Source: Clostridia bacterium
GTDB taxonomy: Bacteria > Bacillota > Clostridia > Christensenellales > Aristaeellaceae
NCBI GenBank assembly: GCA_017512805.1
Contig: JAFWES010000019.1
Location: 1 to 42,702, forward strand
Direction: 5' to 3'
Length of the DNA: 42,702 nt
In this document: positions 39,152-42,702 of the stretch, in pieces
Numbering within the stretch: the stretch's first letter is position 1
How the letters are laid out: each line of letters opens with the position of its first letter
Position numbers and translations under genes: made by a program
The notes under the pieces: generated by a model
Told to the model about the DNA's origin: nothing
The model's database searches: none
What the model saw: only the letters and a program-made list of their open reading frames with translations

Positions 39152-40543
39152 GTGCTGAAGCTCAGACGCCTGATCGGAACCCGCGCGTTCTACCGCTCCG
39201 TTCTGACTCTCTTGATCCCCATCATTATCCAGCAATTTATCTCCAGCTTCGTATCCCTGCTGGATAATGTAATGGTAGGCCGTCTGGGGACAGAGGCGAT
39301 TTCCGCCGCCTCCATCGCCAATACGGTGCTGAACGTGTTTATGCTGGCCGTTTTCGGCGGCCTCAGCGGCATCAGCATCTACGGCGCGCAGTTCTTCGGC
39401 AAGGGCGACATGGAGGGCATGCGCAACTCCTTCCGGCTGAAGTTCGTCTTCTGCGTCATCTGTTCCGCATTGGGAATCGGCATCTACCTGGCCTTCGGGG
39501 AATCCTTCATCGCCAGCTTCCTGCAGGGCAGCAGCGACGGGGGTGACCTGACGCTGGCCCAGCGGGAGGGAGCCGCCTACCTGCGGGTCATGCTCTGGGG
39601 GATCGCGCCTTTTGCCTTCGTTCAGGCCTATGCCAGCACCCTGCGGGAAAGCGGTGAAACCGTGATCCCCATGGTGGCCGGGGTCTGCGCGATTCTGACC
39701 AACCTCTTCCTCAACTGGGTGCTGATCTTCGGCCACCTGGGCGCCCCCGCCCTGGGGGTGCGGGGAGCCGCCATTGCCACCGTGATCTCCCGGTATGTGG
39801 AACTGCTGATCGTCGTCCTTTATGCCCACCGGCATACCGACAAATATCCCTTTTTGCGGGCTGCGTACAGCACCCTGCGCATTCCCGGGGTTCTGATCCG
39901 TCGGGTTCTGCCCACCGCGGCTCCGCTGCTGATCAACGAGATCCTCTGGTCCCTGGGCATGACGCTGATCAACCAGCTCTATTCCAGCCGGGGGCTGAAC
40001 GCGGTGGCCGCCCTGAACATGACCGGTACCGCCTGGAACCTGTTCTGCGTCATCATGTTTGCCATGGGCAGCGCGGTCTCCATCCTGGTGGGCCAGCAGC
40101 TGGGCGCCGGCCGGATGGAGGAAGCCCGGGATGTGGACCGGAAGCTGATCTTCCTGACGGAGGTGATCCACGTGATCATCGGCGCCTCCATGGTCATTGC
40201 CGCTCCCTATATCCCCCTGCTGTACAATGTAAGCGCGGAAGTACGGGATCTGACCCGCCGGATGCTGATCATTGCCGGTCTGAGCCTGCCCCTTCATTCC
40301 TTTGCGCACGTCTGCTATTTCACCATCCGCTCCGGCGGGAAAACCCTGATCACCTTCCTCTTTGACGCGGTATACACTTGGGCGGTCACGGTGCTGCTGG
40401 CGTTCCTGCTGACCCGTTTTACGGCGCTGACCATCATCCAGATCTACTTCTGCGTTCAGTTTATCGATATCATCAAGCTGGTCATCGGCCTGCTGATGCT
40501 CCGCAGCAACTTCTGGGCTCAGAATGTGGTCGCGGATATATAA
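39152..40543 (+). CDS. MATE-family efflux transporter
   Basis: Second MATE protein, 463 residues with twelve spans. LIPIIIQQFISSFVSLLDNVMVG near residues 21-43 is the usual first-helix motif (LLDNVMVG), and the repeat in the second half starts near residue 255. The start is GTG at 39152 with GGGAGGA seven bases upstream; an ATG just before is followed at once by a stop. Expressed from its own sigma70 promoter and divergent from the ROK kinase. A 27-base stretch of its coding region recurs downstream at 40652-40678. The substrate is unknown. Confidence 0.9.
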   Translation: MLKLRRLIGTRAFYRSVLTLLIPIIIQQFISSFVSLLDNVMVGRLGTEAISAASIANTVLNVFMLAVFGGLSGISIYGAQFFGKGDMEGMRNSFRLKFVFCVICSALGIGIYLAFGESFIASFLQGSSDGGDLTLAQREGAAYLRVMLWGIAPFAFVQAYASTLRESGETVIPMVAGVCAILTNLFLNWVLIFGHLGAPALGVRGAAIATVISRYVELLIVVLYAHRHTDKYPFLRAAYSTLRIPGVLIRRVLPTAAPLLINEILWSLGMTLINQLYSSRGLNAVAALNMTGTAWNLFCVIMFAMGSAVSILVGQQLGAGRMEEARDVDRKLIFLTEVIHVIIGASMVIAAPYIPLLYNVSAEVRDLTRRMLIIAGLSLPLHSFAHVCYFTIRSGGKTLITFLFDAVYTWAVTVLLAFLLTRFTALTIIQIYFCVQFIDIIKLVIGLLMLRSNFWAQNVVADI

Positions 40544-40651
40544 TCTTCTGACCGATTGCACAAATCCCTTGATGCAGCAATATGTCCCTATCGCTAGTAC
40601 TTACTGGTACCTTCGTAGGAAAGCACAGGGTATGCGTCATTCCAGAATGCC

Positions 40652-40678
40652 CATGCTTGCCATGGGCAGCGCGGTCTC
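40652..40678 (+). repeat. Fragment of the MATE coding sequence duplicated downstream
   Basis: 40652-40678 matches 40054-40080 inside the MATE gene at 26 of 27 bases. Eight more matching bases (TGCGTCAT, 40633-40640 and 40046-40053) stand in the same order with an extra 11 bases between. The copy is part of an 8-bp stem TGCCCATG/CATGGGCA (40648-40668). The 346-base gap 40544-40889 otherwise holds only the promoter at 40721-40749 and a leader. Confidence 0.65.
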
Positions 40679-40720
40679 TTTCCCCACATGTCCCACTTCC
40701 TCTTTTGGTTGATCAGGATA

Positions 40721-40749
40721 GTGACAACGTTCGAGGTTTCCATTATAAT
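40721..40749 (+). promoter_or_regulatory. Promoter of the unrecognised 248-residue protein gene
   Basis: GTGACA (40721-40726), 17 bases, perfect TATAAT (40744-40749). The leader of about 130 bases has GAAGAT (40801-40806) able to pair with ATCTTC (40840-40845). Confidence 0.65.
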
Positions 40750-40889
40750 ATAGGGCATTGAGGGGCTTACCGTTATTTAATACCAGTCTCCGACGGGAAA
40801 GAAGATTCGGAAGGTTCTGGTACCCGCTTCCAAACGATCATCTTCTCCTTCCGGAGGCCAAGAAAGAACGAGCTATTGGAGAAAAGAAT

Positions 40890-41636
40890 ATGAACGCAAA
40901 ACAAGCAGCCAGAGCAGCTAAGAAACTGGAAGAACAGGCGAAGAACCCCGCAAAAGCCCAAACACAGCTTGACCCGCTTAGCGAGATTCTTGTTTCCAAA
41001 GACGGTCGAAAGAATCTTCCGGGAGGATTTGAAGAAAAATATAAGAGTGAGGCCCTGAAGCAGCGAATTGCCGATCTTGGGATGTGGAACATGATTCCAG
41101 CCGTCAAATGCTCCATGAACAGCCCGGAAGGCATAAAACGTCTGGAAGCCAATGACGTTCTCTTCACATTTATCGATCAATACTTTCGGGATGTCCCATT
41201 CGCCTTTGAACCGAATATGCAGGATGGCCGATTTGTTTTTCTTCCTCACGATGTTTCTCATCAGGGAATTGGGATATGCGCGTCTAAAGATCTGCCGGGA
41301 TATCTGGAAATCGGGCAGTTTTGGTATCCGGCCGAGTTTACGGCAAAAAGATTGTTGCATATTGATCAGGTTTATGTCGCTCAATACAGTACCGAACCGG
41401 ATTTGGTATTTGCCAACGGAATCCGTACACTGTATACCGAAAAGCGGAAATCCAAACAAAGCTGTTATTGCACTTTTCCATTTGATCCGGATACCTATTT
41501 GCGATTTGACGGCAACTTCATGGATCAATTGAATAACACCTGCCAAAAAATCCAAAATGCGCTTAAGGATAGAAGTTTTCAGGTGCGGCGGAACGGAGAA
41601 GCCCTGATTTTATTTTTGCAAAGAATCATGCAGTGA
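40890..41636 (+). CDS. Unrecognised soluble protein
   Basis: Predicted 248-residue protein with no signal peptide and no membrane span. Residues 1-45 are Ala/Lys/Glu-rich and probably helical. The rest is a mixed alpha/beta region with many aromatics (FTFIDQYFRDVPF, DLVFANGIRTLYTEKRK) and a helical end (QLNNTCQKIQNALKD). The start at 40890 is preferred because GGAG stands eight bases before it; the longer reading from a TTG at 40758 lies in the leader. I do not recognise the family. Base composition is less GC-rich than the sugar operons. It shares direction with the DUF6483-like gene 26 bases downstream. Confidence 0.7.
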   Translation: MNAKQAARAAKKLEEQAKNPAKAQTQLDPLSEILVSKDGRKNLPGGFEEKYKSEALKQRIADLGMWNMIPAVKCSMNSPEGIKRLEANDVLFTFIDQYFRDVPFAFEPNMQDGRFVFLPHDVSHQGIGICASKDLPGYLEIGQFWYPAEFTAKRLLHIDQVYVAQYSTEPDLVFANGIRTLYTEKRKSKQSCYCTFPFDPDTYLRFDGNFMDQLNNTCQKIQNALKDRSFQVRRNGEALILFLQRIMQ

Positions 41637-41662
41637 AAGATCGGCATCGTTTGAAGTGAAAG

Positions 41663-42052
41663 ATGTACTATTACGAGAAAGATTATATCATGCGGCTGAT
41701 CCGCGGGATCGCTCAGGTATTGGCCTATCTGTACTTCGGGAAAAAGGGAGATGCGCTGTCTGAGGTGATGAGTCAGGAAGCCCGGGAAGATAACGACCAT
41801 CTCTTGCGTCTGATTGACAGCGGTCAGATCAACGCAGCGGAGAACAGGCTGTTTGAGCTGATCGAGTCTGTCGTTTGGGATGCCGATCAAAAAGCCGCCT
41901 TGATTATCACGTTTTATGACTACCTGAACGGGAAGAAAGACGATTTCCTGGAAAGCTCCGGGTTCTGCAGGGATGAAATCCTGCAAGGGCTGGATGAAGC
42001 GCTACGGATGATAGGGAAAGAGATTCCTGAATATCTGAAATGGGTGGAATGA
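41663..42052 (+). CDS. DUF6483-like protein
   Basis: Protein of 129 residues, helical throughout, beginning MYYYEKDYIMRLIRGIAQ, a start typical of the DUF6483 family common in Lachnospiraceae and relatives. Repeated helix pairs (LLRLIDSGQINAAENRLFELIES and the EILQGLDEALRMI end) give it a TPR-like look. Its function is unknown. The ribosome site is weak (GAAG). It follows the 248-residue gene by 26 bases, so the two may be one transcript. A CCGG.AAA/TTT.CCGG stem lies in the 3' region near 42098-42118. Confidence 0.75.
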   Translation: MYYYEKDYIMRLIRGIAQVLAYLYFGKKGDALSEVMSQEAREDNDHLLRLIDSGQINAAENRLFELIESVVWDADQKAALIITFYDYLNGKKDDFLESSGFCRDEILQGLDEALRMIGKEIPEYLKWVE

Positions 42053-42155
42053 TGGCCGTCCGTATGTTTTTCGACCTTCATGCCGGGTTACCGGGAAATC
42101 ATGGAGTTTCCGGCTTTCCGGGCGTGTGATTATGGCTTCAATGCGGATCACGCTC

Positions 42156-42183
42156 TTGACAGAATCCCGGAAATGCTTATAAT
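42156..42183 (+). promoter_or_regulatory. Promoter of a small RNA
   Basis: TTGACA (42156-42161), 16 bases, TATAAT (42178-42183), both boxes perfect. No coding start follows within the next 110 bases before a terminator. Confidence 0.75.
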
Positions 42184-42189
42184 AAAAAA

Positions 42190-42297
42190 CGAAGAGCAGC
42201 GAACCAACGGCTGTTCCTCGGTTAGTTGTTAAGAAGGTTGGTGGTCATAAGGCCACGGAACAATCGTCACTTCTCGCCCGAGTGGCGGTTGTTTTTT
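42190..42297 (+). ncRNA. Small RNA, candidate type I antitoxin
   Basis: An RNA of about 108 bases from the perfect promoter at 42156-42183 to the terminator ending at 42297. It folds into GA.CAGC/GCTG.TC (42193-42217), GTGGTC-ATAA-GGCCAC (42241-42256) and the 12-bp terminator stem. The second and third stems contain G-U pairs that work only for a plus-strand RNA (they would be A-C on the other strand), which fixes its direction. Its 3' half is complementary to the end of a convergent small ORF at 42245-42373. This is the tail-to-tail layout of type I toxin-antitoxin pairs such as txpA/ratA. The class is inferred; I cannot name an RNA family. Confidence 0.55.
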
Positions 42298-42373
42298 CGT
42301 TTTGGGCCTTACGCTTGGTTTCGCGGATAACAATCGTTATCGTGTACCTCCATACGTGAAAGGTGATCCGCAC
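42245..42373 (-). CDS. Small ORF convergent with the sRNA, candidate type I toxin
   Basis: A 42-codon ORF starting GTG at 42373, with AAAGGGGGG ending about nine bases upstream and a strong minus-strand promoter (42455-42483). Residues 3-17 form a hydrophobic, beta-prone stretch (ITFHVWRYTITIVIR) followed by basic ETKRK, the build of small membrane-active peptides. The last 17 codons overlap the sRNA terminator on the other strand, so translation or stability of this mRNA could be controlled by base-pairing. It may end shorter in related loci. It is too short for family statistics, and the toxin role is inference. Confidence 0.4.
   Translation of the reverse strand: MRITFHVWRYTITIVIRETKRKAQNEKTTATRARSDDCSVAL
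42260..42297 (+). terminator. Terminator of the small RNA
   Basis: A 12-bp stem (42260-42271 with 42281-42292, two U-G pairs) around a 9-base loop, then a T run to 42297. Confidence 0.8.
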
Positions 42374-42454
42374 GTCCTATCCCCCCTTTCGGTTCAGGGA
42401 GTAGGAACAGCCGCCAGCCACACTACATCTTCGTACCCTTTGCAGGGCAAGAAG

Positions 42455-42483
42455 ATTCTACCAGTTTTGATGACCGCCGTCAA
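42455..42483 (-). promoter_or_regulatory. Promoter for the small convergent ORF
   Basis: Minus strand TTGACG (42483-42478), 17 bases, TAGAAT (42460-42455). Transcription from about 42449 would cross the small ORF and run into the sRNA from the opposite side. Confidence 0.6.
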
Positions 42484-42571
42484 TTGTCACCTGCGGTTCC
42501 GACGCTTGTTTCTTCACCGGATCCGCTTTTTCTGGTTTTCAGTCATGCTGAATCCCTCCAGTCAAGATAAT

Positions 42572-42675
42572 ATGAAGTGACCCCGCGTTTGCAGCAACGT
42601 GGATTTACCCGTATACTGTGAATGCAAAATCACGCCAGCTGCGGGGCTTACCGCATGCAAAGGAGGTCACTTCAT
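42572..42675 (+). other. Structured region before a probable IS110 transposase (possible bridge-RNA end)
   Basis: An 11-bp perfect inverted repeat ATGAAGTGACC (42572-42582) / GGTCACTTCAT (42665-42675) encloses further pairing (CCCCGC 42581-42586 with GCGGGG 42641-42646; GCAGC with GCTGC). It ends on the ribosome site and start codon of the next gene. IS110 elements carry a noncoding bridge RNA in this position. The element continues beyond the window. Confidence 0.35.
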
Positions 42676-42702
42676 GCGTAGGATACTAAAAATCGGAATG
42701 GA
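42674..42702 (+). CDS. Start of a gene cut by the window edge, probably IS110-family transposase
   Basis: Nine codons are visible (MRRILKIGM) after AAAGGAGG seven bases upstream. IS110-family transposases often start with a short basic stretch followed by a (V/I)G(I/M)DVH motif, whose first residues this would match. The catalytic part lies outside the window, so the call is tentative. Confidence 0.4.

Follow-up and report, generated by a model that had tools for sequence, protein, structure and literature searches.

The window, by which we mean the whole 42,702-nucleotide stretch of clostridial DNA that was analysed, carries near its end two sigma70-type promoters that face each other across a small open reading frame (ORF), both at the places originally predicted. 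The plus-strand promoter (42156-42183, TTGACA-N16-TATAAT) scores 12/12, and the minus-strand promoter (42483-42455, TTGACG-N17-TAGAAT) scores 10/12, with a TG before its second hexamer. The former would drive an antisense, or antitoxin, RNA of ~109 nt (42189-42297, plus strand), whose ends are placed from the promoter and a T-run. The latter would drive the mRNA of a small toxin-like ORF.

On the minus strand, a small hairpin at the 5′ end of the toxin mRNA (42434-42449), recognised by eye in relatives and outside the consensus fold, is followed by a leader element X (42398-42434), a Shine-Dalgarno hairpin (42381-42401; in many relatives of the CCTCC-GAAA-GGAGG type) and a 42-codon ORF with a GTG start (42245-42373). 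The 5′ element of the antisense RNA (42189-42219, plus strand) has the same sequence type as X. Its complement, X′, would form the 3′ end of the toxin mRNA, where X is predicted to pair with it. The antisense RNA closes with a terminator hairpin and T-run (42257-42297, plus strand), which contains U.G pairs and overlaps the 3′ part of the toxin ORF; the predicted terminator with its T-run was recovered at 42257-42295. The fold of the antisense RNA has a z-score of -3.25, and in the predicted fold of the toxin RNA the two ends pair with each other (z = -5.05).

The original prediction needed correction in several respects. The minus-strand GTG frame of 42 codons and its G-rich ribosome site are present as described, but the tail after about residue 25 is not that of the family presented below. 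The plus transcript had been held to contain no ORF, yet a 34-codon TTG frame runs from 42226 to 42330. An overlap of about 50 bases between the two transcripts holds only for a toxin mRNA with its 3′ end close to the stop codon; given that the leader pairs with the 3′ end, the toxin mRNA would reach ~42189 and the overlap would be ~109 bases. The less GC-rich surroundings were found in block 40001-42000 (GC 0.500 vs 0.548-0.625 in the other 2-kb blocks), while positions 42001-42702 fall outside the tabulated blocks. The type I toxin-antitoxin reading stands as architecture: judged from sequence alone, convergent promoters with a 3′ overlap opposite a small ORF would give the geometry of convergent type I pairs.

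MatE and DUF6483 genes adjoin this copy, the DUF6483 protein being encoded directly upstream (41663-42049, plus strand; E = 2.9e-26). Upstream of the toxin promoter, a ten-codon ATG frame with a G-rich, ribosome-site-like stretch (42514-42546, minus strand), noticed by eye, may be a gene remnant. A repeated element, the putative IS110 element of the original prediction, starts at ~42562 (42562-42702 in the window) and occurs at five places in the genome, the window included (E <= 1e-5). Three of the four other copies touch contig ends, and the element may be the reason why the contig ends here. The 34 residues of it that lie in the window had no Pfam match, and two fetched copies likewise stop at contig ends. 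A bridge RNA of the neighbouring insertion element was considered and set aside because the repeat begins only at ~42562.

Within this region alone, four promoter-like sites were seen where 3.0 are expected. Single-region matches are thus barely above chance, and the case depends on relatives.

Relatives of the locus and probable decay of the window copy

A DNA search of 100 genomes (the window's own and relatives) gave matches in four, the own genome included; the best non-self match was an 86% copy, L004, in the same-genus genome G032. By protein, 8 of the 100 genomes matched, again counting the own genome, which was also the only match in a class-wide sample (1/391). An alignment-based scan of one genome per species, with an N-terminal pattern that made no use of the C-terminus, returned 267 stretches, 240 of them relatives, and the best 80 were retained. 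The record labels were Clostridiales, Lachnospiraceae, Oscillospiraceae, Christensenella, Oscillibacter and similar. Isolates and strains found to carry the family include Vescimonas fastidiosa MM35, Oscillibacter sp. MSJ-31, Oscillibacter valericigenes An907, Pseudoflavonifractor capillosus An827 and Lachnospiraceae bacterium FE2018. Two scans of virus contigs added 18 and 17 loci on largely identical contigs. Merged after removal of a spurious ORF (L008; 109 to 108), the set comprises 108 contexts, window included. The family consists mostly of proteins of 25-31 residues (104/108) of the form MRIT[FL]HIG.FTVTI...NRHSAK-stop.

The same locus was not found by DNA in plasmids or phages. By protein, the ORF was not found in phage records and was found in one plasmid record (E = 0.1): the Vescimonas fastidiosa plasmid pMM35_01 holds three ORF-matching places, of which this is the best value, two of them in tandem ~330 bases apart (L020, 3001-3405). 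The plasmid's gene table, which is incomplete, lists no gene at the best place or in the region shown. A scan of virus contigs with the terminator pattern, ignoring the N-terminus, returned 11 stretches, six with family ORFs. The other five (L045, L046, L047, L049 and L050) show three different N-termini before the same NRHSAK ending, for example MPITLTFHILGLTVTVRV...; these are related sub-families that the N-terminal search did not reach, so the family is wider than counted.

None of 32 members matched a model in Pfam or NCBIfam (E <= 1) or in PADLOC. This applies to an Fst/par profile in Pfam and NCBIfam at the same threshold, the libraries presumably holding an Fst model; the lack of a match to these two libraries bears on homology to TxpA only if they hold a TxpA model. 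One PHROG match (1/32 members, E = 0.19) was too weak to be used. At the gathering thresholds of Rfam 15, the unit was unmatched in the window and seven family loci, in which the single match was a SAM riboswitch outside the unit. This riboswitch lies near one family copy (L014, 1791-1896). Five family peptide strings did not occur in the literature text searched, and the titles and abstract starts searched, a scope that excludes subscription papers and preprints, held no description of the family.

Promoters were scored in mononucleotide shuffles and in 103 loci, the window among them; the other five of the 108 contexts had flanks too short for scoring. The antisense promoter reaches at least 10/12 in 100/103 loci, 67 of them with a perfect 12/12 (shuffles 9/515). 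The toxin promoter does so in 76/103 (shuffles 7/515) and falls below 10/12 in 27/103. An altered ORF end is found in each of the three loci that lack a good antisense promoter (L093, L108, L117); one deletion could explain both changes.

The ORF and the RNA stems, on whose conservation in relatives the original prediction had staked itself, are both conserved, and intact ORF copies are present in relatives. The window ORF reads MRITFHVWRYTITIVIRETKRKAQN..., with the start and middle conserved in the family. Relative to L004 and the family its frame changes around 42287-42301, in the last third, and the ORF therefore lacks the NNRHS ending of its family; the promoters, the leader and the terminator are still in place. 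A covariance model of the antisense RNA, trained on a set that includes the window copy, matched that copy at 42189-42312 and two more places in the own genome, C89 and C31 (E <= 2.7e-6), both remnants whose ORF N-terminus is gone. A fourth match (C8, E = 0.098) was set aside. The second copy in G032 (L007, 223-417) keeps the antisense promoter, the 5′ element and the terminator and has lost the toxin start. L007 is an apparent orphan antitoxin, and its promoter region recurs near a contig end (L008). The window copy is therefore probably a decaying family member, and these few sequences would fit a decay in which the toxin is lost first. In L004, the copy nearest to the window, the toxin promoter scores 9/12; together with the frameshift of the window ORF, this suggests that these loci may be inactive.

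Selection on the peptide, the terminator and a predicted long-range helix

Substitution patterns show that the family ORF is selected as a protein, under purifying selection and in its own frame. Over codons 2-17 of 63 non-redundant loci, pN/pS was 0.19 in frame and 1.54 and 2.20 in the shifted frames, and differences at codon positions 1, 2 and 3 numbered 5041, 2810 and 17358. For the peptide, a beta-hairpin and a basic tail are predicted: AlphaFold2, run with 32 aligned members, places two strands at residues 2-7 and 10-15, with mean pLDDT values per ten-residue block of 94, 86 and 57 and a pTM of 0.31, values that refer to a very small protein. The model does not present the hydrophobic transmembrane peptide that is a typical, not an obligatory, feature of type I toxins.

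The antisense terminator is built from the last codons of this ORF and its stop codon. Its Arg-His pair is written CGC-CAC in 106/108 contexts, the remaining two (the frameshifted window and L030) lacking the pair, and in all 81 contexts from the species-genome scan, which used the N-terminal pattern. Elsewhere in the same ORFs CGC makes up 36/201 Arg codons, and His-6 is CAT in 67/81. CGT, which at the terminator Arg codon would allow pairing on either strand, does not occur there. With CGC, the antisense RNA keeps a U.G pair that is a C.A mismatch on the other strand (U-G in 62/63 aligned sequences, window included), in agreement with the predicted stem that is valid on one strand only. In the aligned stem, 7 of 13 pairs have double changes. 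RNAalifold on the antisense alignment recovered the terminator only and no 5′ hairpin.

Within each locus, the toxin leader and the antisense 5′ end match in a sequence that is specific to that locus. Their mean score within a locus was 13.95, vs 8.20 for dissimilar loci, 6.77 for shuffled sequences and 6.80 for the complement (n = 101), and in 91/101 loci the own score was above that of more than 90% of dissimilar partners. Since the two genes point at each other, a toxin mRNA long enough to reach the antisense start ends in the complement of its own leader, and the likeness of the two elements means that leader and mRNA 3′ end covary as a long-range helix. For the helix tests, 82 loci whose promoters scored 9 or more (toxin) and 10 or more (antisense) were reduced to 63 by removal of near-duplicates; the tests therefore reflect loci with recognisable promoters on both sides. 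The mean duplex energy of leader and 3′ end was -47.9 kcal/mol for own ends and -32.9 kcal/mol for those of other loci. On folding, a mean of 25.7 pairs was expected between own ends, with at least 8 in 63/63 loci, vs 16.7 and 50/63 for swapped ends; as swapped 3′ ends still pair, the long-range pairing is partly generic.

Unconstrained RNAalifold likewise predicts the helix between leader and 3′ end. In an alignment of 36 sequences, hand-picked from the 63 and with a window row (L001) that gives no X′ cells, 88.9% of cells were paired vs 36-55% when the helix was slid, a comparison in which the structure is favoured over its slid versions by having been derived from the tested alignment. Double changes were found in 15/19 pairs, with 102 double-change cells vs 27.6 in shuffles. 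A 5′-3′ pairing like that of AapA/IsoA is thus found here in covariation and in predicted folding. Counted on the toxin strand, and treating related sequences as independent, the X:X′ helix has 48 G.U and 21 A.C, and the terminator stem 2 G.U and 8 A.C, the nearly invariant C.A pair being left out. Because G.U exceeds A.C in the one and the reverse holds in the other, the helix looks selected in the toxin mRNA and the terminator stem in the antisense RNA.

The Shine-Dalgarno hairpin is also conserved (five pairs, one with 14 double changes in 41 sequences), and RNAalifold on the leaders found nothing beyond it. Just past X′, around the antisense start, T is frequent on the toxin strand (mean 7.0 of 14 nt, n = 82), which may be compatible with a weak terminator of the toxin mRNA.

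A candidate toxin-antitoxin-like module and its alternatives

Together, these results make it likely that the window locus belongs, probably as a decaying copy, to a family of type I toxin-antitoxin-like modules that seems not to have been described before. The mobile settings of some copies, next to phage neck and tail terminator proteins on a genome contig, on a plasmid or with several copies in one locus, also speak for this reading. We infer that the family peptide acts as a toxin. In an intact locus, one promoter would give the mRNA for a peptide of mostly 25-31 residues, and the facing promoter, which is nearer to consensus, a short antisense RNA ending inside the ORF's last codons. The toxin mRNA would extend to X′, and the Shine-Dalgarno hairpin and the helix between leader and 3′ end would keep it closed and protected. 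The antisense RNA, with a 5′ end that copies the leader, would pair with X′ and the overlap and lead to mRNA decay. If the antisense RNA were lost, through loss of the mobile element or under stress, the peptide would be made and could act as a toxin.

The same RNAs could have another output if the peptide were a non-toxic regulatory or phage accessory peptide under antisense control, serving for example in host takeover, lysis timing or exclusion. We regard this as unlikely, although the beta-hairpin model does not resemble the membrane type I toxins of the PMC8167048 excerpt and some copies lie near phage genes. Among 17 different neighbour proteins in 20 scans, 8 were matched. On a genome contig (L053), the unit lies between a neck protein and a tail terminator whose match is just at the cut-off; a tape-measure protein lies near the copy in L135 and an integrase near that in L023, neighbours that are expected because two of these three loci, L135 and L023, were selected by being fetched from a virus collection. 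In L056 and L103, the neighbours are a DUF3383 and a phage-type nuclease-domain protein. Against this alternative, other copies sit beside ordinary lactonase (L112) and CarD (L101) genes, beside the MatE and DUF6483 genes of the window, and on the plasmid. The type I system par/Fst likewise combines a Shine-Dalgarno stem-loop with a convergent antisense RNA (PMC7472228, excerpt). The altered ORF ends in all three loci without a good antisense promoter also speak against a non-toxic peptide, to the extent that they do not stem from the single deletion mentioned above.

If the unit were instead a MITE-like non-autonomous element, X and X′ would be terminal inverted repeats selected in DNA by a transposase, and their RNA pairing would be incidental. 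The inverted repeats at both ends, the patchy distribution seen in the class-wide sample and the multi-copy loci (9/72 from the species-genome scan) agree with such an element. However, the repeats include neither of the conserved promoters, one copy of X has (by eye) an internal insertion relative to the other, G.U exceeds A.C on the toxin strand and the ORF is under protein selection, and we consider this explanation very improbable. A chance promoter-like pair with a random short ORF in an accessory stretch, which the weak single-region count would allow, can practically be dismissed, as the relatives, promoters, terminator, pN/pS and helix show a conservation that refutes chance for the family.

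Returning to the type I reading, the balance is about even on whether the family constitutes a new type I class on prophages, plasmids and chromosomes of gut Clostridia. Such a class would have a beta-hairpin toxin whose last codons double as the antitoxin terminator. Its antitoxin would begin with a copy of the toxin leader and hence compete with that leader for one 3′ site. With 240 relatives in one scan, a predicted beta-hairpin and no family model in the libraries tried, the peptide would, if a toxin, widen the range of type I toxins. The carriers are Clostridia of gut and rumen records and their phages, and cultured ones would allow tests of mobile-element addiction. Through the covarying helix and the terminator hidden in coding sequence, the control mechanism lends itself to direct tests.

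Comparison with known systems

In hok/sok, a long-distance 5′-3′ interaction closes the toxin mRNA; we take the hok/sok and AapA1 peptides to be unrelated to the family peptide. The same type of closure is shared with AapA1/IsoA1 of Helicobacter pylori (PMC8167048, excerpt). In the present family, in contrast to both systems, the leader's partner at the 3′ end is complementary to the 5′ end of the antisense RNA.

The typical type I toxin is a small membrane peptide, according to the excerpt of PMC8167048. As described there, TxpA/RatA and BsrG/SR4 of Bacillus subtilis share with the present family the convergent genes, an antisense RNA over the 3′ end of the toxin mRNA, the location on mobile elements and the small protein. 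Their toxins, however, have a predicted transmembrane domain (TxpA, 59 aa), whereas a beta-hairpin is predicted here, and an antisense 5′ end that copies the leader, as found here, is not mentioned for them in that excerpt. Type I modules of Clostridioides difficile (CD0956.2/RCd10 and others) are similar in their convergent overlapping RNAs, prophage location and small, previously unannotated proteins of 34-59 aa; these proteins differ from the present family in their hydrophobic N-terminus with a transmembrane domain and their lysine-rich tail (PMC6563280, excerpt).

With par of pAD1 (Fst/RNA II), the family shares convergent promoters, a Shine-Dalgarno stem-loop, a 5′ helix in the toxin RNA, a short peptide with a charged tail and a repeat present in both RNAs (PMC7472228, PMC8167048, excerpts). 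In par, however, direct repeats yield complementary sites on the two RNAs, whereas the repeat here is inverted, with the same sequence on both (same-strand score 13.95 vs complement 6.80). In the same excerpts, par has a bidirectional terminator and Fst a transmembrane helix (PMC7472228, PMC8167048). Here, the terminator lies inside the ORF and its stem is strand-specific, with a nearly invariant mismatch on the toxin strand, and the peptide is a predicted beta-hairpin. The closest designs are therefore par/Fst and TxpA/RatA in layout and AapA1 in long-range closure, and it is the inverted repeat, the strand-specific terminator within the ORF and the predicted hairpin fold that separate this candidate family from all three.
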